In this document: positions 8,399 to 64,000 of the stretch, piece by piece
Position numbering within the stretch: the first letter of the stretch is position 1
How the letters are laid out: each line of letters starts with the position of its first letter
DNA from: Kitasatospora xanthocidica
Lineage (GTDB): Bacteria; Actinomycetota; Actinomycetes; Streptomycetales; Streptomycetaceae
Length of the DNA stretch: 64,000 bases
Reading direction: 5' to 3'
Assembly (NCBI RefSeq): GCF_014656195.1
Contig: NZ_BNBY01000019.1
Location: 62,722-126,721 of the forward strand
The notes under the pieces: model-generated
What the model was told of the DNA's origin: nothing
The model's input: the letters and a program-made list of their open reading frames with translations, nothing else
Databases searched by the model: none
Position numbers and translations under genes: made by a program

Positions 8399-9243
8399 AC
8401 GCACCCGGCACCACCCTGGTCATCGGGGCCACCGGCACCACCGGCCGCCGCGTCGTCGCCGGACTGACCGCCGAGGGGCATCGCGTCAAGGCCGCCGGCC
8501 GGACCGCCGCCGCGGTGACGGGAGCCCGGGCCGTCCGCTTCGACTGGGACGTTCCCGCGACCTGGAGCGAGGCCGTCGACGGCGTCGACCGCGTCTACCT
8601 CGTCCCGCCCATCGGATCCGCCGAGCCGGCCGCGGTCATGCTGCCCTTCCTCCGCCAGGCCCGTGCGGCCGGCGTGCACCGCGCCGTGCTGCTCAGCTCC
8701 TCGGCGATCCCCGTCGGCGGTCCGGCGGTGGGCCGGGTCCACCAGGAGCTGCCCGGCCTGTTCGAGCAGTGGGCGGTGCTGCGGCCCTCCTGGTTCATGC
8801 AGAACTTCACCGGCTCCATGCCCCACGCGCGCAGCATCCGCGAGGACGGCGCCGTCCTGACGGCCACGGGGAACGGCCGCGTCGGGTTCGTCGACGCCGA
8901 GGACATCGCCGCCGTCGCCGTCCGCGCCCTGACCGACGACCGGTCCCCCGACACCGACCTGGTCCTGACCGGGCCGGAGACGCTCAGCTACGACGACGTC
9001 GCCGCGACCGTCGCCGCGGTCACCGGCCGTCCCGTCGTCCACCGGCACCTGACGTACGAGCAGCTGCGCGACCGCTGGGCGGCCGAGATACCACCGGCCT
9101 TCGCCACCATGCTGGCCGGCATGGACCGCGCCATCGCCGCCGGCGCGGAGGACCGCACCACGGACACCGTCCAGCGCCTCACCGGCCGCCCCCCGGGCAC
9201 CTTCCGCGCCTTCGCCGAACGGGAGCTGTCCGGAAGCCGTTGA
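8395..9243 (+). CDS. NmrA-like NAD(P)-binding protein
   Basis: A 282-residue NmrA/HSCARG-type atypical SDR. It has a Rossmann motif VIGATGTTGRRV (about residues 9-20), the central VHRAVLLSSSAI strand, and the LRPSWFMQNF signature of the group. It resembles NAD(P)H-azoreductase or quinone-linked family members. It overlaps the upstream SnoaL-like gene by four bases and is followed by a strong hairpin at 9257-9308. Both genes are probably repressed by the neighbouring TetR protein and induced by a small toxic compound; the inducer is unknown. Confidence 0.87.
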   Translation: MNAPGTTLVIGATGTTGRRVVAGLTAEGHRVKAAGRTAAAVTGARAVRFDWDVPATWSEAVDGVDRVYLVPPIGSAEPAAVMLPFLRQARAAGVHRAVLLSSSAIPVGGPAVGRVHQELPGLFEQWAVLRPSWFMQNFTGSMPHARSIREDGAVLTATGNGRVGFVDAEDIAAVAVRALTDDRSPDTDLVLTGPETLSYDDVAATVAAVTGRPVVHRHLTYEQLRDRWAAEIPPAFATMLAGMDRAIAAGAEDRTTDTVQRLTGRPPGTFRAFAERELSGSR

Positions 9244-9256
9244 GGTCCACGACGGT

Positions 9257-9308
9257 CCGCCGGCCGGAGGAGGAGCGCGGGGCCACCCGGGCGCCCGCCG
9301 GCCGGCGG
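9257..9308. terminator. Hairpin after the NmrA-like gene
   Basis: Perfect 11-base arms CCGCCGGCCGG and CCGGCCGGCGG at 9257-9267 and 9298-9308 enclose a 30-base loop, 14 bases after the stop. Confidence 0.55.
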
Positions 9309-9426
9309 TAGCGCGTATCGTCGGATGGCGCGACGGCACCATCCGACCCGCTTCGCGCCACGCGCGCCCACCGGACACCGTGAACCCGCCCGGGGGCCGC
9401 GACAGGCCGAGGACGAAGGAGGAAGC

Positions 9427-38751: not shown

Positions 38752-41025
38752 CTACCCGGCCGGGGCCGTCGCCGGGGAGGCCGGCGCCAGGGGCCCGTCG
38801 TGGCGGGCGCTGGCGCGCCAGTCGGCGACGCGGACCAGGGTTTCGAGGAAGGCGAGGCGGAACGGGCCGAGACCGGGGGCGTCGCGCAGGGACAGGGCCC
38901 GTTCGGTCCAGGCCGCCGGGAAGGCGGCGGTGCGCAGGGTCCGGGCGGGGAAGTGCTCGCCGGTGGACAGCCGGATCGGCGGGGTGCGGTCCCCGTCCGC
39001 GACGCCGAGCAGCAGTGGGGCCTCGTCGCCGCGCGGGCGCACGGTGAGCCGGACCTGGCCGTGGTGGGCGGCGGCGAGGTACGTCACGAGCGGGTGGTGA
39101 CCGCCCTCCCAGAGCAGCAGGGCGCTGACGAGCTCGTGCCGCAGGTAGGGGCGCGGCGAGTGGTAGGGCGGCAGGGGGTCGGCGCCGTTCCTGGACTTGG
39201 CGAGCAGGCCGCCGGGTGGGTCGGTGCGGCCGGCCCGCAGCTTCTCCTGGAAGGCGTCGTGGCACTTGCCGAGGTCGTGGAAGCGGGCCGCCTCGACCAC
39301 GGCCTCCCGCAGGCCGGTGGGGAGCGCGGGCAGCGCGGCGAGCAGCGACTCCGCCTCCTGCGCGGTCTCCTGGAGGTGCTGGTCGAGGCCGACCCAGGCA
39401 GTGCAGCCGTAGGCCGGCCGCCCGGGGACGGCGGCCTCGCAAGCCACCGGGGCCGGACTCGCCGGGGTCCAGCCGCGGTCCGGGAGGTAGCCGCCGGTGC
39501 GGGCGTCCAGGAGCAGCCGGACGCCGGGCCGCAGGTCCTCCGGCCGCGCGGGGCGCCAGCGGCGGTCCAGGGTGTCGCGCAGCCAGGCCCGCCCGGCGGG
39601 AAGCCGCCGGAGCTCGCCGAGCGGCACCGGGCAGAGTTCGGCGCCGCTCGGGTCCGGCTCGTCCTCGCCGGGCTCGGCGCGGTCCCAGGCGCGCCAGGCG
39701 ACCAGGGCCGGGAGCGAGTCGGCCTGCGCCGGGTCGCGGATCCAGTGGTCCACCCCGGCGGTGTCCCCGGCGGTGTCGTCGGCGGGCGAGTCGAAGAGGG
39801 CCAGGACGTCCTCCCGCCCCGGCCCGGGCGGCGCAAGCGGTACGGGCTGTACGGGCGCCGCGGCCGGCGCGTCGACGTCGGCCGTCAGCAGCTCGCCGGG
39901 GGTGACGGCCCGGCCCTCGTGGGCGGTCAGCCAGCGCGCGGTGGCCGCGTCACCGCCCTCGGGGGGCGTGCACCACAGCAGGTCGCCCCCGTCCGGGTGC
40001 TCGCCGTGGCGGTTGCAGCGGCCGGCGCGCTGCACGAGCGAGGCCCAGGGCGCGAGTTCGGTGACCAGGGTGCGGCTGGAGAGGTCGAGCCCGGCCTCCA
40101 GGGCGGGGGTGGCGACGAGGACGAGGTCGCGCGCGCCCTCGGCGGCGGCCAGGGCACGGTCGAGGTCGGCGCGCCGGAAGTGCGGGTGCAGCAGCAGTGC
40201 CTCGCACCTCCGGGCGGCCAGGGCGGCGTGCACGGCCCGGGCCCGTCCTGGGGAGTCGAGCACCACGACGGTCCGGGTGCCCGGCACGTGCGCGGCGGTG
40301 ACGGCCTCGGCGAGGGCGGTGACGTAGCGCCCCGGCGGAAGGTCGAGACGGCCGATGCGCCGCACCGTCCCGGTCGTGTCCGGCGCGCGCACCGTCCTCC
40401 CGCCGAGACCGCCCGGCCCCCGGACCGACGACATCCACATCGTCCCGGTCGCCGCAGCCGTCCCCAAATCGTCTCGTAGACACTGGAGTTGCACACCGGT
40501 GGCCAGACCGGGCCCGAGCAGGCGCGCCTCGTCGAACACCCACTGGGCGTCGGTGTGCAGCAGCGCGTACGAGACCGGCGCCATCGTCGGCGCGTCCGCG
40601 TAGCCGCGCATCAACGCCCGGCTGAGCACCATGTCGTGGGTGCCGACCAGGATCGCGCTGCGCTCGGGGCGCCGCAGCCAGCCGCCCTCCTGCGCCGCGG
40701 CGCCCGCGAGCAGGTGCAACCCGACCTCGTCCGCGCGGCCCAGGCGCGCCAGCCACTCCCCGATCCGGTCGACGGCCTGGTCGGCGAGGCTGTGCCGGGG
40801 CAGCACGTACACCAGCCGGCGGGGCGTGGCCCCCGGCGCGGCGATCAGCCGCCGGTACAGCCACGGCAGCACGGCGGCCACCGTCTTGCCGGCCCCGGTG
40901 GGCGCCTCCAGCAGAGTGGGCAGTCCCTCGGCGGCCAGCGCCGACTGGTAGGGGTAGGGGGTGAAGCCGGTGGCGGTGCGCGCGAAGGTCTCGTAGGTCT
41001 CGCAGGTCTCGAACTCGGCCGTCAT
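38752..41025 (-). CDS. cas3: Orphan Cas3-like helicase with C-terminal HD nuclease (type I-G-like)
   Basis: A 757-residue SF2 helicase-nuclease. Walker A is EAPTGAGKT (residues 40-48), the Walker B box is DEAR (165-168) and the motif III equivalent is MWMSSV (196-201). Motif V is VATPALEAGLDLS (304-316) and motif VI is QRAGRCNR (332-339). The C-terminal HD domain has H550, H583-D584 (ARFHDLGKC), H630, H654-H655 (AAAHHGQVR) and D735 (VADWRAS). A helicase-first, HD-last order is typical of type I-G Cas3. No cascade gene, adaptation gene or repeat array is in the window. DEAR replaces the more usual DEAH/DEVQ, and SSV replaces SAT. It stands alone between the amidase and the two-component locus. 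Confidence 0.85.
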   Translation of the reverse strand: MTAEFETCETYETFARTATGFTPYPYQSALAAEGLPTLLEAPTGAGKTVAAVLPWLYRRLIAAPGATPRRLVYVLPRHSLADQAVDRIGEWLARLGRADEVGLHLLAGAAAQEGGWLRRPERSAILVGTHDMVLSRALMRGYADAPTMAPVSYALLHTDAQWVFDEARLLGPGLATGVQLQCLRDDLGTAAATGTMWMSSVRGPGGLGGRTVRAPDTTGTVRRIGRLDLPPGRYVTALAEAVTAAHVPGTRTVVVLDSPGRARAVHAALAARRCEALLLHPHFRRADLDRALAAAEGARDLVLVATPALEAGLDLSSRTLVTELAPWASLVQRAGRCNRHGEHPDGGDLLWCTPPEGGDAATARWLTAHEGRAVTPGELLTADVDAPAAAPVQPVPLAPPGPGREDVLALFDSPADDTAGDTAGVDHWIRDPAQADSLPALVAWRAWDRAEPGEDEPDPSGAELCPVPLGELRRLPAGRAWLRDTLDRRWRPARPEDLRPGVRLLLDARTGGYLPDRGWTPASPAPVACEAAVPGRPAYGCTAWVGLDQHLQETAQEAESLLAALPALPTGLREAVVEAARFHDLGKCHDAFQEKLRAGRTDPPGGLLAKSRNGADPLPPYHSPRPYLRHELVSALLLWEGGHHPLVTYLAAAHHGQVRLTVRPRGDEAPLLLGVADGDRTPPIRLSTGEHFPARTLRTAAFPAAWTERALSLRDAPGLGPFRLAFLETLVRVADWRASARHDGPLAPASPATAPAG

Positions 41026-53161: not shown

Positions 53162-54436
53162 GTGAGCAGCATCTCCGATCCGCCCCGGTCGACCGACGAG
53201 GCCGAGGAGGTCCCCGAACTGCCCGCCTCGGCGCGGGGTTTCGACCGGTGGCGGTACGCCGGGGTGTTCCTCCTGCTGTTCCTGTTCGGCACCGAGACCT
53301 TCCTGGTGTCGCCGCTGCTGCCGACGATCGCGGACTCGGTCCACACCAGTGAGGCGGCCGCCGCGTCGAGCGTCACCGCCTACGTGCTGGTGTACGCGGT
53401 CGCGGCGCCGTTCCTGGGGCTGCTGAGCGACCGGCTCGGCCGTCGCCGCACCCTGCTGGTGGGCACGCTGCTGTTCGTCCTGTCGAACGCGGCGGCGGCG
53501 CTGTCCACCGGGCTGACGCTGCTGGTGGTCTCCCGGGCGGTGGCCGGGCTGGCGGCAGCCGCGGCCGGGCCGGCGATCTGGGCGCACATCGCCGAGACCG
53601 CGCCGGAGGCCGTGCGCGGCCGGGCGCTGGGCCTCGGCATGGCGCTGTTCTCCCTGGGCCAGGTGATCGGGGTGCCGCTGGGCGGCTTCCTGGCGGGGCT
53701 GGCGGGGTGGCGCTCGGCGTTCTGGGCGCTGGCGATCGGCACCGCCGCGGCCGTCCCGCTGCTGCTGCGCCAGGTCGGGGCCGCCGCGGCGCCGGCACCG
53801 GCGGCGCGGGTCGGGGCCGTCCGGGCGATCCTGGCCGGCTGGGCCGATCCGACGCTGCGCCGGGCCCTGCTGGTCAACACCGTCTTCAACACGGCCAACC
53901 TGGGGGCCTACACCTTCCTCGGCGCGCTGCTGGTGCAGCGCTTCGACCTGTCGGTGCAGGCGCTCGGCCTGGTCGGCGTACTGGTCGGCGCGGGCAGCAT
54001 GACCGGCTCGCTGCTGGGCGGTCGGCTCGGCGACCGGGCCAGGACGGCGGGCCGCTCGGACCTTCCGCTGCTGCCGCTGTGGGGCCTGCTGCTGGCGGTG
54101 GGCATCGCGGTGGCGGCCGAGGCGCCGGGCCTGGTGCTCGCGCTGGCCGGGGTGACGGTCTGGTTCGTGGCCTCGGGCGGCTTCGTGACGGACCAGCAGA
54201 CGCTGGCGGGCACCATCGCGCCGGAGCTGCGGGCGACGTCCAGCGCGTGGCTGACGTCGACCATGTACGCGGGCACCGGGGTCGGCGCCTGGGCGGTGGG
54301 CACCTTCGGCGACGTCGCGGACGGCACCCTGCTGGTCGGCGCCGGGCTGGCGCTGGTGGCCGCGCTGGGCGGTCTGGCGGTCAGCCTGGGCCTGCGCCGC
54401 GCCGCGGCCGCGACGGCCACCACTCCGGGCGCCTGA
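53162..54436 (+). CDS. MFS transporter (DHA1-type, AraJ-like)
   Basis: A 424-residue major facilitator with about 12 membrane segments, motif A as LSDRLGRRRTLLVG and motif C-like GQVIGVPLGGFLAG. It is of the AraJ/Cmx drug-efflux type. The N-terminal tail is acidic. The GTG start follows a weak AAGGTGG. The gene runs with the alpha/beta hydrolase and is convergent with the XRE-type regulator, with only 9 bases between stops. Export of a drug or peptide is inferred. Confidence 0.87.
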   Translation: MSSISDPPRSTDEAEEVPELPASARGFDRWRYAGVFLLLFLFGTETFLVSPLLPTIADSVHTSEAAAASSVTAYVLVYAVAAPFLGLLSDRLGRRRTLLVGTLLFVLSNAAAALSTGLTLLVVSRAVAGLAAAAAGPAIWAHIAETAPEAVRGRALGLGMALFSLGQVIGVPLGGFLAGLAGWRSAFWALAIGTAAAVPLLLRQVGAAAAPAPAARVGAVRAILAGWADPTLRRALLVNTVFNTANLGAYTFLGALLVQRFDLSVQALGLVGVLVGAGSMTGSLLGGRLGDRARTAGRSDLPLLPLWGLLLAVGIAVAAEAPGLVLALAGVTVWFVASGGFVTDQQTLAGTIAPELRATSSAWLTSTMYAGTGVGAWAVGTFGDVADGTLLVGAGLALVAALGGLAVSLGLRRAAAATATTPGA

Positions 54437-54445
54437 AGACGGGGC

Positions 54446-55320
54446 TCAGCCCACCCGGCGCTCCGCCTCGGCGCCGCCGACCGCGCGCAGCGGGTGTTCG
54501 ACGAGTTCGGACATCCGCGCCCGGTCGGCGGCGCCGTTCGGCGTGAACAGCAGGACCGTCGCCGTGGGGTCGTCCACCGGGTGGAAGGAGGACAGCATCA
54601 GCCGGACCGGGCCGAGGCCGGCCGGTTCGACGGTGACGGTACGGACGGTCAGCTCCGCCACCGAGTGGCACCCCCACCAGTGGCGGAGCTCCGGCGCGTC
54701 CTGGTCCAGGTGCCGGTAGACCTCCGCGGTGCGGGGCTCGGCCAGGGCCGGGCCCGCCTGGGCGCGGAAGTGCTGGAAGACGTTCATCGCGAGCGGTTCC
54801 CAGTCCCGCAGCACGGCGCGCACCCGGTGGTCGGCGGCCATCACCCACATCAGGTTGCGGCGCTCGCCGGGCACGAACTCGGGCGCGCCCCAGAGCGCCG
54901 TCCAGGCCGCGTTCCAGCCGCGCAGGTCGAAGTGGCGGTCCAGCAGGACGGCGGGGCTGGTGGGCCAGGAGTCGAGGACGGGCTGGATGGCCCCGGCGAG
55001 CCGGTCGGTGCCGTCCGGGCCGCCGGCCGGGGCGGGCTCGTGGTACCCGGCCAGGCGCAGGGCGTGCCGCAGCCCGGCGTCGTCCAGCTTGAGCACCCGG
55101 GCGATGGCCTCCAGCACCTGGCGGGAGGCGGCGACCCTCCCCTGCTCGACCCAGGTGTACCAGGCGAGGCCGACGCCGGAGAGCGAGGCGACCTCCTCGC
55201 GGCGCAGGCCGGGGGTGCGGCGCCGGGTGGTGGCGGTGAGGCCGACGTCGGCGGCTTGAGGAGCTCTCGGTGGGCGCGCAGGAAGGCGCCGAGTTCCCGT
55301 CCGGCGGTGGGAGTTGACAC
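54446..55320 (-). pseudogene. MmyB-type XRE regulator broken by a single-base frameshift
   Basis: The N-terminal part starts at GTG 55320 (STPTAGRELGAFLRAHREL), characteristic of MmyB-like XRE regulators. It then leaves the frame at about 55250-55256. The continuing protein (TTRRRTPGLRREEVASLSGV, then the MmyB ligand-binding part LRGWNAAWTALWG to the stop) is in the next frame. One missing G in a GGC/GCC-rich run (expected CCGGCC, seen CCGCC) accounts for it. It is either a sequencing error or a recent inactivation, because the rest is intact at about 290 residues. Such regulators usually control an adjacent oxidoreductase or exporter, here perhaps the MFS gene. Confidence 0.8.
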
Positions 55321-55413
55321 GGTTGGGCTCCTCGGCCGTGGTCGGTGCTGCGGACTGTCGGGGGTACCGCGGATCGTGGTGAGCGGTGCGGACGAGCCCA
55401 GCGTAGGCGTATG

Positions 55414-55444
55414 CCCGCCGCTCCTCCCAGGGATGAGCGGCGGG
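55414..55444. terminator. Terminator of the methyltransferase operon
   Basis: Perfect 10-base arms CCCGCCGCTC and GAGCGGCGGG enclose an 11-base loop, downstream of the minus-strand stop at 55481. Confidence 0.65.
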
Positions 55445-55480
55445 CTACACACGCTGTTAACGGAAGGCCGGCTTGGCCGG

Positions 55481-56323
55481 CTACCGGGCGGTCAACGTCC
55501 AGAGCCGGACCGGCATGTGGCTGACGTGCCCGCGCTCGCGCCGGCGCCGCCAGGCGCTCTCGCCGACGGCCCGGAAGAACGCGGCCCGCCGCTCCTCGGG
55601 CACCAGGCGGCTGTAGTAGTCGCCGAAGGTGGCGGCGTGGAAGTGCTCGTACTGGGCCGCGCTGTCGACCGTGACGACGGCGTCGCGCTCCAGGTGGCCG
55701 GCCACCCTCAGGTGCGGGCCGATGACGGCCGTGAGGTCCTCGACGGTCCTGGTGCGGGTGGCGATCGGCAGCACCCCGCCGCGCGCGAACAGGCCGGGCA
55801 CCTCCTCGTACGGGGTGCCGAGGGCCACCAGGGCGTCCCGGACCAGTTCGTCCTCGCCGCCGAGGCCGTGCTCGTCCCGGGCGGGGTGGTACGTGGTGAG
55901 CAGGAACCTGCCGCCGGGGGCGAGGTGGGCGGCGGCCCAGGCGAAGATCCGCTCCTCGTCCGGGTAGAGCCAGTGCAGCACCGAGGTCTGGGTGATCAGC
56001 TCGGCCCGGAAGGGCAGCGGTTCGGGCGCGGTGAGGTCGGCCCGGTGCAGGGCGGCCCGCTCGCCGTACGGCCGCAGCCGCTCGGTGGCCTCGGCGATGC
56101 GGTGTTCGGAGCGTTCCAGGCCGACGGCGCGCCGCAGACCGGGGAAGCGTTCCAGGGCCTCCTGGAGCAGCTGGCCGATCCCGCTGCCGAGGTCGATCAG
56201 GGACTCGGGGGCGTCGGTGACCTGGTCGAGCACCCAGTCGCGGTCCTGGACCTGGCGCAGCCGGCTGGCGTCGGCGTACCCGGCGAGGGTACGGGCCTGG
56301 ATCTCGACGGCGGACGTGCTCAC
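55481..56323 (-). CDS. Class-I SAM-dependent methyltransferase
   Basis: A 280-residue methyltransferase. Motif I is SLIDLGSGIGQLLQEALE. The acidic post-I motif is VGLERSEHRIAEA. A SVLHWLYPDEERIF segment and HLAPGGRFLLTTYHP follow. The pattern is that of small-molecule O-, N- or C-methyltransferases of the trans-aconitate-methyltransferase type. The GTG start overlaps the end of the HpaB-type gene (GTGA), which places it last in the minus-strand operon. It probably tailors the product of that operon; the position methylated cannot be read from sequence. Confidence 0.88.
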   Translation of the reverse strand: MSTSAVEIQARTLAGYADASRLRQVQDRDWVLDQVTDAPESLIDLGSGIGQLLQEALERFPGLRRAVGLERSEHRIAEATERLRPYGERAALHRADLTAPEPLPFRAELITQTSVLHWLYPDEERIFAWAAAHLAPGGRFLLTTYHPARDEHGLGGEDELVRDALVALGTPYEEVPGLFARGGVLPIATRTRTVEDLTAVIGPHLRVAGHLERDAVVTVDSAAQYEHFHAATFGDYYSRLVPEERRAAFFRAVGESAWRRRRERGHVSHMPVRLWTLTAR

Positions 56324-57864
56324 GACTGCTCCTCCTCGATGCCGGTGGTGCCGGTGGTTTCAGTGGTGCCCGTGGTACCAGTGGTGCCGGTGGGCCGGTC
56401 GACCAGCCGCAGCAGCCGCTCGCGGGCCTCGCTCTGGTCGTACCGCTTGAAGACGTTGATCCGGTTGCGGGCCAGGTCGCCCCGGTGGACGTACTCGTAG
56501 AGGTCCTGGCGCTGGCCGAAGCCGTCGCCGGTGAGCTCCCAGGCGATCCGGAACAGCCGGGACTTGCGCTCGGCGTCGATGCCCCGGCCGCGCATGTAGC
56601 GGTCCAGGTGGGGGCGGAGCCGCGGGTGGGCGAGGTCGTCGGCGGTGGGCTGGATGAGCAGTCCGGAGGCGCCGATACGGCGGACGATCTCGACGGCGCT
56701 GCCGGCCACTTCGGCGGACCAGACCCGGGAGGCGGCGGTGTCGCCGGGGGCGAACAGGCCGCCGTCGGTGACACCGCCGCGGGCTTCGGCGGCGTCCAGG
56801 AAGTACTCGGTCAGTTCGGCGTAGCCGGCGAGCCGGCCGAGGTCCTCCTGGATGTTGCGGAAGCCGTCCACGCCGATGGATTCGGCGACGAGGGTGGCGG
56901 TGGCGAGCAGGGTGCGCAGCCGCTCGCGGTAGCGGATGTGGCCGACGTAGGCGCTCCAGGCGTTGATCCGGCCGAGGCCGAGCCGGGCGAGGCCGGCGTC
57001 GCGGAGCAGGAAGACGCGGTCCCAGGGCACCAGGACGTCGTCGAAGAAGAGCATCGCGTCCTGCTCGTCGTACCGTGCGCCGAGCGGGTGGGCGTGGCCC
57101 CAGGGGGCGCTGCCGAGCGGTTCGCGGGCGAGGGTGATCAGGCCGGGGGTGTTGAGCGGCAGGGCGAACCAGCTGACGAACTGCTCGCCGCGGCCCTCGG
57201 TGAAGGAGGCGGAGAGGTAGACGAGGACCTCGTGGGCGAGCGGGGCGAGGGTGGTGAGCTGCTTGGCGCCGCGCACCACGATGCCCTTGTCGTTCTCCTC
57301 GACGACGCGCAGGGCGAGGTCGGGGTCGTCGACCGGGTCGGCGGAGCGGTCGATCTGCGGGTCGCCGAGGGCGTGCGAGAGGACGAGGTCGTTGGTGGCG
57401 CAGTACCGGTACCAGGCTTCGGCGTTGGCGCCGAAGCGCGGGTCGGCGGCGGCCAGCCGGTTGCGGAAGTCGTGGACGCCGACGGCGATGGAGGCCATGA
57501 AGGCGGGTGAGCGGCCCTGTTGTCCGAGTGCCTCGGCGTGCCAGAACTCGGCGCTGCGGCGCTGGAGCCGGAGGTCTTCGAGGGTGCGCGGGGGCTGGTA
57601 GGCGCGGGCCAGCCGCAGGCCGCTGTCCGGGTCCTTCCAGGTGAGCAGCTCGCGGTGGTCGGGGTCGTGCTGGAGGTCGAGCAGGCGGGCGAGTTCGTCG
57701 ACGGCCGGGCGGAAAGCGGGGTGTTCGGCGGGGTTCGCGATCCGCTTGCCGTCGAGGTACAGCTCGCGCCCGTCGTCGAGTTCGGACCGGTAGCGGTCGC
57801 CGGTGAGCAGGCCTCGGGCGGTGGCGGGCGCGCCGCGACCGGTGACGGTGTCCAGCAGTGTCAT
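56320..57864 (-). CDS. HpaB-type FADH2-dependent monooxygenase
   Basis: A 514-residue protein of the 4-hydroxyphenylacetate 3-hydroxylase large-component family: RYRSELDDGRELYLDGKRI, then FRNRLAAADPRF and the central WGHAHPLGARYDEQDAMLFF, followed by VPWDRVFLLRDA and a C-terminal helical bundle. Such enzymes ortho-hydroxylate phenols or act on amino groups using FADH2 supplied by a partner. That partner, the flavin reductase, is directly upstream with an ATGA overlap. The C-terminus has a TGTTGTTGTTETTG repeat tail. It sits in the coupled minus-strand operon. Confidence 0.9.
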   Translation of the reverse strand: MTLLDTVTGRGAPATARGLLTGDRYRSELDDGRELYLDGKRIANPAEHPAFRPAVDELARLLDLQHDPDHRELLTWKDPDSGLRLARAYQPPRTLEDLRLQRRSAEFWHAEALGQQGRSPAFMASIAVGVHDFRNRLAAADPRFGANAEAWYRYCATNDLVLSHALGDPQIDRSADPVDDPDLALRVVEENDKGIVVRGAKQLTTLAPLAHEVLVYLSASFTEGRGEQFVSWFALPLNTPGLITLAREPLGSAPWGHAHPLGARYDEQDAMLFFDDVLVPWDRVFLLRDAGLARLGLGRINAWSAYVGHIRYRERLRTLLATATLVAESIGVDGFRNIQEDLGRLAGYAELTEYFLDAAEARGGVTDGGLFAPGDTAASRVWSAEVAGSAVEIVRRIGASGLLIQPTADDLAHPRLRPHLDRYMRGRGIDAERKSRLFRIAWELTGDGFGQRQDLYEYVHRGDLARNRINVFKRYDQSEARERLLRLVDRPTGTTGTTGTTETTGTTGIEEEQS

Positions 57865-58406
57865 GCGCCAACTCCGTTGGTGTTCAAGGAGGTCGGGGCC
57901 AGTACCCGGTACTGGCCGTCGTGGTAGAGGAGGGGTGCGCCGGTGCCGCGGGCCGCGGCGGCGACCCGGCCGACCAGGATGGTGTGGTCACCGCCGGGCA
58001 GGTCGGCGTGCAGCCGGCAGTCGAACCAGGCCAGGGCGGATTCGACCAGCGGGGCTCCGGTGGCGGCGGTCCTGGTCGGCACGGCGGTGAAGCCGCCGAG
58101 GGCACGCCCCGCCCCGGGGGCGGCGAACCGCCGGGCGACGGATTCCTGACGGTCCGTCAGGACGGAGAGCCCGAACCGTCCGGAGGTCCGCACGGCGGCC
58201 ACCAGCGGACTGTGCCGGCCGATCGCGACGGTGACCAGCAGCGGGTCGAGGGAGAGGGTGCTGAAGGAGGAGACGGTCTTGGCGAAGACCTCCTCGCCCG
58301 CCCGGGTGGTGACCACCGCGACCCCGCTGGTCCAGCCGCGGGAGGCGGCCCGGAAGTCCTGGTCGGTGACCTGCGCGTCCCGCACGGCCGGCGCGGTGCC
58401 GCTCAT
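57861..58406 (-). CDS. Flavin reductase (HpaC-like)
   Basis: A 181-residue flavin reductase: FRAASRGWTSGVAVVTTRAG, FSTLSLDPLLVTVAIG, FGLSVLTDRQ and DHTILVGRVAAA are all characteristic of the family, which reduces free FAD or FMN with NAD(P)H. It is the natural partner of the downstream HpaB-type monooxygenase. Both ends overlap neighbours by four bases (ATGA), so the stoichiometry of the system is probably set by coupled translation. The ATG at 58406 is chosen from this overlap; longer open frames upstream lie in asnB. Confidence 0.92.
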   Translation of the reverse strand: MSGTAPAVRDAQVTDQDFRAASRGWTSGVAVVTTRAGEEVFAKTVSSFSTLSLDPLLVTVAIGRHSPLVAAVRTSGRFGLSVLTDRQESVARRFAAPGAGRALGGFTAVPTRTAATGAPLVESALAWFDCRLHADLPGGDHTILVGRVAAAARGTGAPLLYHDGQYRVLAPTSLNTNGVGA

Positions 58407-60238
58407 CGCAGCCCCACCCGGTAGGCGCGCAGCCACTCGTCGACCTGGACCAGGTGGTCGAGGCCGCCGACCGGGTTCGGCGCGGTGCGCGGGCTGGGCA
58501 GCGGGCGGCCCTCGGCGAGCAGCCGGCGGACCGTCTCGCGGTCCACCAGGTCGAAGACCGGCGCGTTCGGGTCGGCCAGCAGCTCCTGCGCCCGGGCCGT
58601 GAGCACCTCGGTGTAGCGGACGGCCGGGGTGGACGGGTAGCCGCTCTTGGGCCGGTCGGTGACCTGCGGCGGGAGCAGGTCGCGGACGGCGTCGCGCAGC
58701 AGCCCCTTGGACCGTCCCTCCGGCGCCTTGAGCGCCCAGGGCACGTTCCACAGGTATTCCACCAGGCGGTGGTCGCAGAACGGCACCCGTACCTCCAGGC
58801 CGACCGACATCGACACCCGGTCCACCCGGTCCAGCAGCGGGGGCAGCCAGCGGGTGAGCGCGAGGTGGAAGACCTCGCGGGTACGCGCCTCGGCGGCCGA
58901 CTCCCCGGCCAGTCGCGGCACTTCGGCGAGCGAGCGCCGGTAGGCGTCGGCGGCGTACTCCTCCGGGCGCACCTCGGCCCGGACGTCCGGGCGCAGCAGG
59001 TCCGCCGGGGTGGCCTTGCCGTGCAGCCACGGGAAGGTCGGGGCGGCGAGCGCGGCGGCGTCGTGGAAGTAGGGGTAGCCGCCGAAGATTTCGTCCGCGG
59101 CCTCACCGGAGAGCGCGACGGTGGAGCGCCGCCGCACCTCGCGGAAGAGCAGGTGCAGCGAGGCGTCCATCTCGCCCCAGCCGGGGCGGTCGCGGGCTCG
59201 CAGGACGGTGTCGCGGGCGTCCAGCAGGTCGTCGTCGGGCACCAGGACGGTGGTGTGCAGGGTGCCGATGTGGTCGGCGGCGGCCGCCACGTACGGGGCG
59301 TCGCGGGTGGTCCGCCAGGCGTCGGGGGTGCGGTCGGCGCTGCCGGGGAAGTCGACGGAGAAGCTGGCGATCTTCCCCTGGCCGGCGCGTTCGCGGGCGG
59401 CGGCGGCCAGGGCGGTGACGGCGCTGGAGTCGACGCCGCCGGAGAGCAGGGTGCACAGCGGCACGTCGCTGATCAGCTGCCGTTCGACGGCGTCGGCGAG
59501 CAGCTCCCGGACGGTGCGCCGGGTGGTCGCGGCGTCGTCCCGGTGCTCGGCGGACTCCAGCCGCCAGTACCGGAGTTCCCGGGTGGCGGCGCGGGCGACG
59601 ACCACCAGGTGGCCGGGCCGGACCTCGTGCAGGCCGCGGAAGACGCCGTGGCCGGCGCTGGGCGCGGCGGGCAGGGCGAACAGCTCGGCGATGCCCTCGG
59701 CGTCGAGTTCGGGGCGGAACAGCGGGTTGGCGAGCACCGCCTTCGGCTCGGAGCCGAACAGCACGCCGCTGCGGTGGGCGTGCCAGTGGAGCGGCTTGAT
59801 GCCGAGGTGGTCCCGGACCAGCAGCAGCTCCTCGCGCCGGGCGTCCCACAGGGCGTAGGCGAAGATGCCGTTGAACCTGGCCGGCGCCTCCCTGCCCCAC
59901 TGGAGGTGGGCGCGCAGCACCACCTCGGTGTCCGAGCGGGTGCGGAAGGCGTGGCCGAGGGCCTCCAGTTCGGCGCGCAGCTCGCGGTGGTTGTACAGCT
60001 CGCCGTTGTAGGCGAGGACGGCCCCGGCCTCAGGTCCGGGGCGGTCGGCGAGCGGCTGGACGCCTCCGTCGAGGTCGATGACGGAGAGCCGGCGGTGGCC
60101 GAGGGCGGCGTGCCGGGACAGCCAGACGCCGTCGGCGTCCGGGCCGCGGCAGGCGAGGGTGGCGGTCATCTCCCGGACGGTCCGGGCCTGGTGGAGCAGG
60201 TCGGTGTCCCAGTCGATCCAGCCGGTGATTCCGCACAT
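58403..60238 (-). CDS. asnB: Asparagine synthetase (glutamine-hydrolysing), class B
   Basis: A 611-residue AsnB. The glutaminase domain has Cys2 as nucleophile (MCGITGWI), LAYNGELYNHRELR and the RSDTEVVL signature. The synthetase domain has the PP-loop SGGVDSS at residues 266-272 and the LSGEAADEIFGGYPYF stretch. All catalytic motifs are present. In a small operon with a monooxygenase and methyltransferase it more likely amidates a pathway carboxylate than makes asparagine for growth. It overlaps the flavin-reductase start and begins only one base after the stop of the preceding unknown gene (TGAGATG). Confidence 0.92.
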   Translation of the reverse strand: MCGITGWIDWDTDLLHQARTVREMTATLACRGPDADGVWLSRHAALGHRRLSVIDLDGGVQPLADRPGPEAGAVLAYNGELYNHRELRAELEALGHAFRTRSDTEVVLRAHLQWGREAPARFNGIFAYALWDARREELLLVRDHLGIKPLHWHAHRSGVLFGSEPKAVLANPLFRPELDAEGIAELFALPAAPSAGHGVFRGLHEVRPGHLVVVARAATRELRYWRLESAEHRDDAATTRRTVRELLADAVERQLISDVPLCTLLSGGVDSSAVTALAAAARERAGQGKIASFSVDFPGSADRTPDAWRTTRDAPYVAAAADHIGTLHTTVLVPDDDLLDARDTVLRARDRPGWGEMDASLHLLFREVRRRSTVALSGEAADEIFGGYPYFHDAAALAAPTFPWLHGKATPADLLRPDVRAEVRPEEYAADAYRRSLAEVPRLAGESAAEARTREVFHLALTRWLPPLLDRVDRVSMSVGLEVRVPFCDHRLVEYLWNVPWALKAPEGRSKGLLRDAVRDLLPPQVTDRPKSGYPSTPAVRYTEVLTARAQELLADPNAPVFDLVDRETVRRLLAEGRPLPSPRTAPNPVGGLDHLVQVDEWLRAYRVGLR

Positions 60239-60239
60239 C

Positions 60240-61172
60240 TCAGGACTCCCCGGGTTCGTCGGTGGCGGTGGGCGCGGCGGGCTCGGCGGGCGGCGCGGCG
60301 GGCTCCGCAGGCCGCGCGATGGTGACGTCGACGGGCCCGGGCGCGGCCGTGGACTCCCAGCGGCAGCCGTGGCCGGTCGGGCCGTGGGTGAGCCGGTGCG
60401 CGGGCCGGTAGCCCTTGGCGCGGATGTTGGCGGACAGCGCCTCGGTGCAGTAGGTGCAGGGCGAGGCGAGGGTCAGCCGGACGCCCGAGCGCCGGGCCTT
60501 CTCCCGGTAGTCCCAGATCGCGCAGTGCGTGATGGTGAGCGCGGCGTGCTCGGGGCCGGGTGCCGCATCGTCGTCGAACTCGTAGTCCGAGCCGTACAGT
60601 TCGGCCTGCCGGGCGATCCGGTGGATCGGGTCGGCGGCGCCCCGGCCGTGGTCGGGCTCGACCTCGCGGTGCACCTCGGCGTTGGACCGGGCCCATTCCC
60701 CCAGCACCTCCTCGCCGTAGCGCAGGACGAGGAAGCGTTCCATCAGCGCCTGGTCGCGGAAGAACACCCGCTGCCACTCGACGGCCGGGGCGTCCGGCAC
60801 GGGCAGGTCGGCGAAGAGCTCGGACTGCAGGACGAACCAGTCGGTGAGGTGCAGTTCGTCGCCCCGGGACACCAGGTACCGGGTCAGCCCGGCCTCGGCC
60901 TCGTGCAGCCGCTGCCGCCAGAGCGCGGACCGCTCGGCGTCCGACATCGCGCGGTACGGGGACCTCGGCTGCTCCACCCCGGGGCCCGGTCGGCTCGTGG
61001 CGGCGGCCAGCACCGCCGTGCGCGGGCCGGTCTCGCCACCCGGCCGGCCACCGGCACCGGCCCCGGCACTGGTCCCGGCCCCAGCACCGGCACCGGCACC
61101 GGCACCGGCACCGGCACCGGCACCGGTCGGACTGCCGGTCGGAGCGCCGGTCCCGTCGGACACACCCCCCAT
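60240..61172 (-). CDS. Unknown protein with a Cys/His-rich C-terminal domain
   Basis: A 310-residue protein that opens the operon. Residues 17-41 are an almost pure Gly-Ala repeat from a GGTGCC-type DNA repeat. From about residue 70 the sequence is structured: MSDAERSALWRQRLHEAEAGL, DWFVLQSELFADLP, WQRVFFRDQALMERFLVL. The C-terminal part has H216-C217, C239-x2-C242 (ASPCTYCTEAL) and H263, H268, C270 (THGPTGHGCRWE), a likely metal- or heme-binding set. The final GHGCRWE is loosely reminiscent of V4R-type small-molecule domains. No family is firmly recognised. The ATG at 61172 follows GAAGGGAG. Confidence 0.7.
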   Translation of the reverse strand: MGGVSDGTGAPTGSPTGAGAGAGAGAGAGAGAGTSAGAGAGGRPGGETGPRTAVLAAATSRPGPGVEQPRSPYRAMSDAERSALWRQRLHEAEAGLTRYLVSRGDELHLTDWFVLQSELFADLPVPDAPAVEWQRVFFRDQALMERFLVLRYGEEVLGEWARSNAEVHREVEPDHGRGAADPIHRIARQAELYGSDYEFDDDAAPGPEHAALTITHCAIWDYREKARRSGVRLTLASPCTYCTEALSANIRAKGYRPAHRLTHGPTGHGCRWESTAAPGPVDVTIARPAEPAAPPAEPAAPTATDEPGES

Positions 61173-61439: not shown

Positions 61440-62396
61440 CTACCCGGCGAGCCCGTGCCGGTGGGCGTACAGCGCGGCGCGCAGCCGGTCGGGCTGCCCG
61501 ATCTTCCGCATCGCCTGGGTCAGGTGCTTCTTCACGGTGGCTTCGGCCAGGGCGAGTTCACGCCCGATCTCGGCGTTGCTCAGCCCCTGCCCGAGCTTGA
61601 CCAGCACCTCCCGCTCGCGCTCGGTCAGCCCGGCCTGCTGCGGTGGCAGCTCGCCGAGGTGGCGTGCGGGGGCCACCGCGTGGGTCCGGGCGGGCGGCGG
61701 GGCCGGCAGGAACACCGACCCGCCGGCCGCGACGAGTTGGACGGCGCCGATGATCCGCTCCCCGGCCAGGTCGAGCGGGAAGCACCCGCTGGCCCCGGCG
61801 AGCAGCATCCGGCTCGCCTCGGCGGTGGACTCGGCGCGGCGCAGCAGCAGGACCCGGGCGTCGGGCGCGCCGTCCGGTCCGCGCAGCGCCACCACGGCCG
61901 CCAGGTCCTCCTCCAGGCTCGCGCCGCGGCCGAGCAGGACGACGTCGGGGGCGACCCGGTGCACGGCGGCGACGGCGCGCAGCGGGTCGCCGGTGGAGCC
62001 GACCACCGTCAGTCCGGGCGCTGTGGCCAGCACGCTGCGCAGTCCGGCGCTGGTCACCGAGTTCCGCTCGACCAGGAACACCCGGGCGAGTCCGGTGCGG
62101 TCGCGCGGCCCGTCCACGCACATCGGGTGGCCGCAGTCGCAGCCGCCGTCGGCCCGGGCCGGGACGGGCTGGGCCGGTTCGGCCAGCAGCTGGTGACCGG
62201 CGATCAGGTCGAGCGGGTTGTCGATCTCGGCGTGCAGCCCGGCGACCGGCCCGGCGGAGGAGTCCCCGGCGGAGGAGTCCCTGGGGCCGGTGCCCGGGCC
62301 GGTGACCGGGCCGGTGCCGCCGCAGGCGCCGCGGCGGGCGGGGAGCCGGCGGCCGCGCGGGCCGGCCGGGGCGGCGAAGGTGCTCACTGCTGCCAT
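61440..62396 (-). CDS. Atypical NarL/LuxR-type regulator with a Cys/His motif
   Basis: A 318-residue regulator. After about 75 Gly/Pro-rich residues comes C86-x-C88-x-H90-x2-C93 (GGCDCGHPMC), then a degenerate receiver at about 105-225. In it the phospho-acceptor Asp is replaced by Gly (PDVVLLGRGAS, G156) and the acidic pocket is missing (FLVERNS). The LuxR helix-turn-helix is at about 255-315 (LTEREREVLVKLGQGLSNAE). It cannot be a standard phosphorylated regulator; the Cys/His cluster may bind metal or sense redox. It lies directly upstream of, and on the same strand as, the five-gene biosynthetic operon and probably controls it. The ATG start is chosen at 62396; a longer frame upstream is unsupported. 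Confidence 0.82.
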   Translation of the reverse strand: MAAVSTFAAPAGPRGRRLPARRGACGGTGPVTGPGTGPRDSSAGDSSAGPVAGLHAEIDNPLDLIAGHQLLAEPAQPVPARADGGCDCGHPMCVDGPRDRTGLARVFLVERNSVTSAGLRSVLATAPGLTVVGSTGDPLRAVAAVHRVAPDVVLLGRGASLEEDLAAVVALRGPDGAPDARVLLLRRAESTAEASRMLLAGASGCFPLDLAGERIIGAVQLVAAGGSVFLPAPPPARTHAVAPARHLGELPPQQAGLTEREREVLVKLGQGLSNAEIGRELALAEATVKKHLTQAMRKIGQPDRLRAALYAHRHGLAG

Positions 62397-63102: not shown

Positions 63103-63171
63103 ATGCCCGCCCCGCCCCACCGGCCCGCCGCCGGCCCGCTCGGCGCCCCGCCCCGGAGGGCCGGCGGGTGA
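63103..63171 (+). CDS. Possible 22-residue leader coupled to the ABC permease
   Basis: An ATG behind GAAGGAG starts a Pro-rich 22-residue frame (MPAPPHRPAAG...) whose TGA overlaps the permease GTG (GTGA). It probably serves translational coupling. Confidence 0.35.
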   Translation: MPAPPHRPAAGPLGAPPRRAGG

Positions 63172-64000
63172 CCCGGTTCCTGTTGCGCCGCCTCCTGCTG
63201 GCCGTCCCCACGCTGTTCGGCGTCACCGCCGTCGTCTTCGCGACCGTGGCGCTCGTCCCCGGCGACCCGGTGGCCGCCTTCCTCGGCCCGGGCGCACCGC
63301 CCGAGGCCCGCCGGGAGCTCACCGAACGGCTCGGTCTGGACGAGCCGTTGCCCGTCCGCTACGTCGACTGGCTCGGCCACGCGCTCAACGGCGACCTCGG
63401 CACCTCCGTCGCGGGCCAGCGTCCGGTCGCCGACCTGCTGCTGCCGGCGCTCGGCCAGACGCTCACCCTGACCGCGGCCGCGTTCCTGCTGGTGCTGCTG
63501 GGCGGGGTGGCGCTCGGCGCGCTCGGCGCGCTGCGCCCGCGCGGCCCCGGCGGGCGGATCTCCGGCGCGCTGTCCACCCTCGCGGTGTCCGCCCCGCAGT
63601 ACTCGGTGGCCCTGCTGCTGATCGCCGTGTTCGCGGTCGGGCTGCGCTGGCTCCCGGCGGGCGGGACGAACGACGCCTTCGGGCCCGGCGGTCCGGCCGA
63701 TCTGGCCCGGCACCTGGTCCTGCCGGCGGTCGCGGCGGCGCTGGTGCCGCTCGGGCTCACCGCCCGGGTGTTCCGGGCCGCGCTGGGCACCGTCCTGGCC
63801 GGTGAGCTGGCCGACTCGCTGCGCGCCCGGGGTCTGCGCCCGGCGGCCGTGCTGCGGCACTGCGTGCACAACGCCTCGCCCGCGCTGCTGACCATCGGCG
63901 GGCTGCAACTCGCCTACCTGCTGGAGGGGGTGGTCTTCGTGGAGACCCTGTTCGCCTGGCCCGGCGTCGGCCGGCTGCTGTACGACGCGCTGACCGCCCG
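63168..64000 (+). CDS. ABC transporter permease, DppB-like (partial)
   Basis: The first 277 residues of a binding-protein-dependent permease: MTRFLLRRLLLAVPTLFGVT, the conserved LVPGDPVAAFLGPGA and LGLDEPLPVRYVDWL. The EAA-like loop is ELADSLRARGLRPAAVLRHCVHNASPALLT, whose core is RARGLRPAAVLRH, and the VVFVETLFAWPGVGRLLYDA segment is typical of DppB/OppB-type peptide or nickel importers. The gene runs off the right edge, where the partner permease and ATPase genes should follow. The GTG start follows GGAGGG and overlaps a small upstream frame. It is divergent from the LuxR gene and may or may not belong with the biosynthetic operon. Confidence 0.9.
   Translation, partial: MTRFLLRRLLLAVPTLFGVTAVVFATVALVPGDPVAAFLGPGAPPEARRELTERLGLDEPLPVRYVDWLGHALNGDLGTSVAGQRPVADLLLPALGQTLTLTAAAFLLVLLGGVALGALGALRPRGPGGRISGALSTLAVSAPQYSVALLLIAVFAVGLRWLPAGGTNDAFGPGGPADLARHLVLPAVAAALVPLGLTARVFRAALGTVLAGELADSLRARGLRPAAVLRHCVHNASPALLTIGGLQLAYLLEGVVFVETLFAWPGVGRLLYDALTA

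Follow-up and report, generated by a model that had tools for sequence, protein, structure and literature searches.

A five-gene operon in Kitasatospora xanthocidica

Analysis of a 64,000-nucleotide stretch of the Kitasatospora xanthocidica genome (contig NZ_BNBY01000019.1, positions 62,722 to 126,721; hereafter the window) uncovered a conserved, apparently undescribed cluster of minus-strand genes that joins known enzyme classes to one unnamed protein family, here called U. In order of transcription, the genes encode U, an AsnB-family glutamine amidotransferase (AsnB), a flavin reductase, an HpaB-type flavin-dependent oxygenase (HpaB), and a class I S-adenosylmethionine (SAM) methyltransferase (MT) (Table 1). 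A preliminary description of this DNA had reported five coupled genes at these positions, and the open reading frames (ORFs) confirm this, with junctions of +1, −4, −4, and −4 bases. The four enzyme families it had named were confirmed with Pfam and NCBIfam: AsnB matches Asn_synthase and GATase_7, the reductase matches Flavin_Reduct, the oxygenase matches HpaB_N and HpaB, and MT matches Methyltransf_12/23/25. Its statement that no polyketide synthase, nonribosomal peptide synthetase, or terpene synthase is present is true for the operon.

The cluster is regarded as apparently undescribed because open-licence PMC papers, searched with some queries of low power, yielded no description of the gene set, and because U is absent from Pfam and NCBIfam. 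Lacking the three synthase classes and carrying a marker without a Pfam or NCBIfam family, the operon may be missed by ordinary cluster detection, even though more than 20 genomes of one family sample preserve it whole. U is the marker and the most informative gene of the operon.

The preliminary description had also placed a terminator at 55414–55444. A GC-rich hairpin does occupy this site (−28.5 kcal/mol), and when this 180-base stretch was shuffled 200 times by mononucleotide, a stem of at least 11 bp arose twice; a search after MT found no T-run, and the role as a terminator is plausible only. Comparable hairpins vary among relatives, and at the corresponding place 4 of the 22 compared lack any stem of 8 bp or longer. 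Judged from the predicted proteins, the locus extends past the five genes to MmyB-type and LuxR-type regulators, a major facilitator superfamily (MFS) transporter, a Dpp-class importer, and luciferase-like monooxygenases. Beyond the window on the same contig (region L069), the DppB gene is followed by genes for a substrate-binding protein and a luciferase-like monooxygenase.

Table 1 Features of the operon and its flanks in the window (HTH, helix-turn-helix; ABC, ATP-binding cassette).
Feature	Position	Strand	Remarks
U, unnamed-family protein, 310 aa	60240..61172	-	conserved core 60240-60947 (235 aa)
AsnB-family glutamine amidotransferase, 611 aa	58403..60238	-	N-terminus MCG, SGGVDSS motif
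HpaC/HsaB-like flavin reductase, 181 aa	57861..58406	-	family profile matches
HpaB-type flavin-dependent oxygenase, 514 aa	56320..57864	-	domain matches, alignment
Class I SAM methyltransferase (MT), 280 aa	55481..56323	-	family profile matches
GC-rich hairpin after MT gene, 11-bp stem, without T-run	55413..55445	.	
MmyB-like HTH regulator (MLTR_LBD)	54446..55318	-	conserved beside operon; start approximate
MFS transporter, likely exporter	53162..54436	+	conserved at locus
NarL/LuxR-type regulator	61440..62300	-	upstream of U; start uncertain
DppB-type ABC permease	63168..64000	+	runs past window end

Conservation of the operon and spread of U

A search with the U core across 394 Streptomycetaceae genomes, our own strain included, returned matches in 32. 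Far from being scattered in relatives, the five genes occur in identical order in 23 of the 394, K. xanthocidica and 22 others, a recurrence that places the order beyond chance. Every stretch fetched from the 22 other genomes also contains the MmyB-like regulator, the MFS gene, and a LuxR-type regulator, the last lying up to several kb from U in three of them. One further genome (G108) holds a deletion remnant (L060), in which the region from about residue 65 of U (of the 246-aa query) to residue 148 of MT is lost, which removes AsnB, the reductase, and HpaB and fuses the remnants of U and MT out of frame; the flanking regulators and transporter remain. The U matches of the remaining eight genomes are distant or merely weak. 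Larger regions were fetched for 30 of the 32 U-positive genomes (30 regions from 29 genomes, as G031 has two places, with our own genome covered by the window and L069), and those not fetched, G004 (E 2.7e-4) and G368 (E 7.5e-4), have weak matches only.

Tight spacings recur across the 31 loci compared, with gene starts picked by a simple rule: −13 to +3 bases between U and AsnB and −34 or −4 between AsnB and the reductase in all 31, −34 to +2 between the reductase and HpaB in 28, and −4 between HpaB and MT in 26. Spacings of −2357, −996, and −266 are artefacts of start-codon picking, counted but not regarded as real overlaps.

Scanning contigs of named relatives gave 61 loci, 35 with a long U and 26 with a short U, whose gene content was read up to 10 kb either side of U; this set overlaps that of the family genomes (several of L079–L098 are the same genomes), and the two are not additive. 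All five genes occur at 24 of the 35 long-U loci, and two of the 11 without the full set, L090 and L101, come from contigs roughly 10 kb long. AsnB is present at 33 of the 35, the exceptions being a 7-kb contig (L110) and a U at a contig end (L112). MFS genes are found at 30 long-U loci, DppB and DppC at 28 each, substrate-binding proteins and luciferase-like monooxygenases at 26 each, and a 3-deoxy-D-arabino-heptulosonate 7-phosphate (DAHP) synthase at 6.

Five arrangements are prominent among the long-U loci, namely groups A–D and a cassette in Xenorhabdus vietnamensis. Group A is the Kitasatospora/Streptomyces arrangement seen in the window. Group B (S. fulvoviolaceus, Streptomyces sp. DvalAA-43, Marinitenerispora, and Micromonospora arborensis) has all five genes at approximately 45–71% identity, and in the first two (L099 and L100) the substrate-binding-protein gene follows MT after 18 bp and 54 bp, respectively. 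An alpha/beta-hydrolase-like gene lies near U in L099, L100, L101, and L105. Group C (S. noursei and Embleya hyalina) combines U with two AsnBs; an amidase and an FAD oxidoreductase were typed in S. noursei L104, and the ORFs are conserved in L106. Group D (five Streptomyces, L107–L111) has U with a DAHP synthase, an AMP-binding enzyme, and a luciferase-like monooxygenase, typing in L111 giving a class II DAHP synthase and an aldehyde-dehydrogenase domain.

The U–AsnB pair is found without HpaB and MT in other bacteria. Xenorhabdus vietnamensis (L113) carries a five-gene cassette of U, two consecutive AsnBs, an MFS protein, and a class I DAHP synthase. A transposase-like ORF (8696–9346, by eye) lies immediately upstream of this cassette. 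In Rhizobium sp. 007, a U fragment stands beside a DAHP synthase and an AsnB, adjoining an IS6 element, on two plasmids. Searches for U in 149 genomes of the Xenorhabdus family and in 149 genomes of Methylobacterium relatives each matched only the seed genome (1/149). Genomes G398 and G399 encode class I DAHP synthases on contigs other than that of U.

The short U keeps different company: its neighbours include a Rieske oxygenase and a member of the carboxymuconolactone-decarboxylase family at 26/26 loci and AsnB at 0/26. Short-U loci (L114–L139, L032, L061, and L062) come from Micromonospora, Nonomuraea, Streptomyces, Rhodococcus, and others. ORFs resembling the glycosyltransferase (by eye) and the FMN reductase of L122 are seen at 24 and 20 of the 26, and a DAHP synthase occurs at 2, also in Rhodococcus. 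For the long-U operon, sequence comparison establishes the predicted enzyme classes, their order and coupling, and their conservation with the MFS protein, two regulators, and the Dpp-class importer.

Properties of AsnB, HpaB, and U

AsnB contains both an N-terminal Cys glutaminase and an Asn_synthase domain, and since the genome has nine Asn_synthase matches, it is not needed as a sole housekeeping enzyme. Its best PDB match is TsnB9 (7ylz; 520.9 bits over residues 1–600), far ahead of AsnB 1ct9 (168.3 bits). TsnB9 is a hydroxyamidotransferase, and passages of PMC13418202 report that a TsnB6/7/9 cassette yields benzohydroxamic acid in S. angustmyceticus. In a tree of 31 AsnB rows (rooted for drawing only, with the Xenorhabdus rows as long branches of less sure placement), the window AsnB, one U-linked AsnB per group A–C row, and one from Xenorhabdus form a 13-row clade (99/99). 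The other group C and Xenorhabdus AsnBs, two from group D, and one from Rhizobium make up a second clade of 6 rows (100/100). TsnB9 lies outside the U-linked 99/99 clade and pairs, on a branch that is not starred (92/87), with the AsnB of an R. leguminosarum phenazine-like cluster (L158), itself 45.8% identical to the window AsnB. Relatives of TsnB6, TsnB7, and TsnB8 were found at 0 of the 35 long-U loci. Given this absence and the placement in the tree, the resemblance to TsnB9 reflects a broad subfamily and not a pathway, and membership of a TsnB-type hydroxamate cassette was rejected.

HpaB is the sole HpaB-domain match in its genome. Scores of 271.1 bits (HpaB_N) and 135.4 bits (HpaB), and of 129.2 bits for the reductase (Flavin_Reduct), are over cut-off; against the NCBIfam equivalogs, HpaB stays below the cut-offs (HpaB-1, 338.5 vs 480.2; HpaB-2, 204 vs 885.2). 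Residues R118 and H164 align with R100 and H142 of Thermus thermophilus HpaB, which we take to bind the substrate phenol, presumably through an Arg/Tyr/His set that holds the phenol hydroxyl. R118, F122, H164, S218, and A219 are invariant in 42/42 aligned rows, in which the window copy and some genomes appear twice, and A219 stands for Thr in every row, including that of a Sinorhizobium medicae relative. The S. medicae protein is the best-ranked plasmid relative (53%) and is encoded beside BagB/BagC-like genes for 3-amino-4-hydroxybenzoate (3,4-AHBA). Its cluster on plasmid pMl2 (L154) includes, besides the 3,4-AHBA-type genes and HpaB, a very large protein annotated as alpha/beta hydrolase, an AMP-binding enzyme, a cobalamin-dependent protein, a SagB-type dehydrogenase, and a phosphopantetheinyl transferase. 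In the window, a 9-base repeat (6.8 copies, 56340–56399) encodes a Thr-Gly tail of HpaB.

The full 310-aa U gave a chance hit only in Pfam (E 0.17) and none in NCBIfam, and its best PDB match (E 0.0073) is confined to the low-complexity N-terminus. The ATG at 61172 agrees with the "MG.." starts of near relatives; a downstream GGTGCC-rich stretch is not common to them, and a 6-base tandem repeat (13.7 copies, 61044–61126) encoding a Gly-Ala stretch near the N-terminus is missing in relatives. Within the core, Cys142, Cys164, Cys167, and Cys195 (core numbering) are invariant in 41/41 aligned rows and probably form a metal or Fe-S site.

Modelled with AlphaFold, the window U core and the Xenorhabdus U reached predicted confidence (pLDDT) values of 90.4 and 91.5. 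H-NOX chains are the best natural matches of both, with Z 9.5 (root-mean-square deviation 4.2) and Z 9.0 (4.0), respectively, over 153 aligned residues each, little above the Z of 7–8 that is the tool's typical level without a clear match. TRAPP subunits are matched by both models as well, and a designed protein (Z 9.3, 79 residues aligned) outranks H-NOX for the Xenorhabdus model. The phenol sensor MopR (V4R) with bound phenol appears among the weak Foldseek rows of the window model. No Foldseek E-value for the U models fell below 0.001, and Pfam searches of 27 U members at E up to 10 listed V4R, HNOB, TRAPP, and ATC_hydrolase in none. Because of these E-values, the near-typical Z-scores, and a non-significant profile comparison, we take the models to suggest, weakly, no more than a fold resemblance to H-NOX and TRAPP.

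Three other assignments of U were rejected. Its Cys spacing is similar by eye to that of ATC hydrolase/V4R proteins, and hhalign was not significant with shallow profiles of 5 sequences each. A cytidine-deaminase-like protein is hinted at by a PC..C motif and by a single hit (E 0.049) across the 27 members, with no deaminase in the fold-list rows shown. As for TsnB6, the query had no relative in the 61 named loci, and TsnB6 is without the Cys pattern of U.

A proposed route to a phenolic amide, its alternatives, and known systems

We propose that the five genes form the centre of a compact locus dedicated to the biosynthesis of a small phenolic amide, and we give this proposal, together with the steps that follow, about an even chance of being right. 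The substrate would be a small phenolic acid, probably of the C6-C1 type and shikimate-derived. AsnB would adenylate its carboxyl group and amidate it with glutamine-derived ammonia, HpaB would use reduced flavin supplied by the reductase to add a hydroxyl ortho to the phenol OH, and MT would methylate the new catechol or another group; amidation, hydroxylation, and methylation may follow one another in any order. The MFS protein would export the product, and the adjacent conserved importer may bring in either a precursor or the product itself, the latter perhaps together with a metal. U, a four-cysteine and probably metal-binding protein, is conjectured to cooperate with AsnB by making or holding the aromatic substrate.

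Several lines of evidence lead to this proposal: the gene order conserved in 23/394 genomes, the five genes at 24/35 and AsnB at 33/35 long-U loci, and the two supported clades of U-linked AsnBs; the invariant R118 and H164 of HpaB and the 3,4-AHBA genes beside its best plasmid relative; the DAHP synthases at 6/35 long-U loci and beside the Rhizobium sp. 007 fragment; and the short gaps from MT to the substrate-binding protein in L099 and L100. A precedent is PhzH, an AsnB-like enzyme that makes an aromatic amide according to a passage of PMC6060551. The preliminary description had envisaged an aromatic acid or amino acid activated as an amide, hydroxylated, and methylated; the enzyme classes fit, and HpaB keeps the Arg and His, while activation as an amide, the order of steps, and the substrate go beyond what the sequence shows. 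An amide made by AsnB is normally a product and not an activated form, and NspN is a further AsnB-family aromatic amidotransferase.

A bolder extension, which we regard as a long shot, would make U and AsnB an undescribed module moved between Actinomycetota, Gammaproteobacteria, and Alphaproteobacteria. U would then be a new kind of enzyme on an H-NOX/V4R-like scaffold with a four-Cys metal site, converting a shikimate intermediate (chorismate or a precursor) to the aromatic acid for AsnB, and the five genes would suffice to lead from primary metabolism all the way to a hydroxylated, methylated benzamide. The shikimate role for U is suggested by the DAHP synthases at U loci.

Some observations weigh against the phenolic amide. 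The top PDB relative of AsnB is a hydroxyamidotransferase, and the third phenol-binding residue of HpaB, a Tyr, is Phe (F122) in all 42 rows. PF01959 has no members in the K. xanthocidica genome, in a search that detected 3 archaeal controls; 3,4-AHBA made in the strain was therefore rejected as substrate, and the acid here must be another. Group A–C loci yielded no relative of DAHP synthase or PabB and no Sinorhizobium-type 3,4-AHBA gene, and a PabB-like enzyme near U was discarded after one query gave 0 hits in the 61 loci. For the substrate-binding protein, heme-binding protein A, YliB, dipeptide binders, and nickel binders all come up as matches, and with matches so mixed, import of the product is one option among several.

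The kinship with TsnB9 raises the alternative of a hydroxamate or hydrazide, for which AsnB would transfer hydroxylamine from glutamyl hydroxamate and HpaB with its reductase, or U, would act as N-oxygenase. Although TsnB9 is by far the best PDB match and belongs to a cassette that makes benzohydroxamic acid, we consider this improbable, as TsnB6/7/8 relatives are absent from the long-U loci, TsnB9 branches with the phenazine-like-cluster AsnB, and HpaB retains its phenol-binding Arg and His. The pairing of transporters, and that pairing alone, suggests a metallophore: the product would be a small metal ligand, a catechol combined with an amide, that leaves through the MFS protein and returns metal-loaded through the SBP_5/Dpp system. 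The opine-type staphylopine Cnt system is a precedent for such export and re-import. Such a product is compatible with a phenolic amide but on balance unlikely; importer and MFS genes are frequent at long-U loci, importer genes directly follow MT in L099 and L100, and the substrate-binding-protein class includes nickel binders, but the protein itself is best matched by heme-binding protein A, YliB, and dipeptide binders, and no importer was found at the Xenorhabdus locus.

Catabolism or detoxification, in which the luciferase-like monooxygenases, HpaB, and MT would act on a peptide-like or aromatic compound brought in from outside, would account for the conserved importer and monooxygenase genes (26–28 of 35 loci) and for the alpha/beta-hydrolase-like gene at four loci. 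We think it very unlikely in view of a glutamine- and ATP-spending AsnB at 33/35 loci, MFS at 30/35, a patchy spread across phyla, and DAHP synthases at several loci, all of which point to biosynthesis. If the phenolic amide proposal is true, the U–AsnB pair would help to trace a class of small aromatic amides in different phyla, and U would become the first member of its family with an assigned function.

Two further loci were noted. Elsewhere in the window (38752–41025, minus strand), a Cas3-like protein has its HD domain C-terminal of the helicase, an order that, we presume, recalls type I-G/I-U CRISPR systems. Consecutive genes on a plasmid of Streptomyces sp. NBC_00648 (L035) encode an isocyanide synthase, a P450, an AsnB, an MFS protein, and an iron-type ABC importer, and are a candidate for another AsnB-bearing metal-ligand cluster.

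Among known systems, the HpaB/HpaC 4-hydroxyphenylacetate 3-hydroxylase shares both HpaB domains, a paired flavin reductase, and the phenol-binding Arg and His, whereas the window enzyme has Phe in place of Tyr and Ala in place of Thr at two positions that contact the substrate in the reference enzyme and is under the HpaB-1 cut-off. Clusters for 3,4-AHBA (grixazone, nitrosobenzamide, and bagremycin/ferroverdin) resemble the locus in the HpaB relative beside BagB/BagC-like genes and in the amide of the acid, 3-amino-4-hydroxybenzamide, a known intermediate in a passage of PMC6692506; unlike them, the K. xanthocidica genome has no 3,4-AHBA synthase family and the operon no copper oxidase. PhzH of phenazine-1-carboxamide synthesis is likewise an AsnB-family amidotransferase acting on an aromatic carboxylate, but the operon is without phenazine genes and its AsnB falls in a separate clade. 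The TsnB6/7/9 system of trichostatin A likewise packs into a few neighbouring genes an oxygenase, a methyltransferase, and an AsnB-family enzyme with a carboxylic acid as its substrate; it differs in that the window oxygenase is HpaB-type rather than the diiron TsnB7, TsnB6 and TsnB8 are missing, and AsnB belongs to another clade. U weakly resembles H-NOX, TRAPP, and V4R (MopR) proteins in predicted fold and differs from them by its four invariant Cys and the absence of a Pfam match. Finally, U loci resemble Cnt-like opine metallophore loci in combining an MFS protein with an SBP_5/Dpp importer, the direction of transport being predicted.

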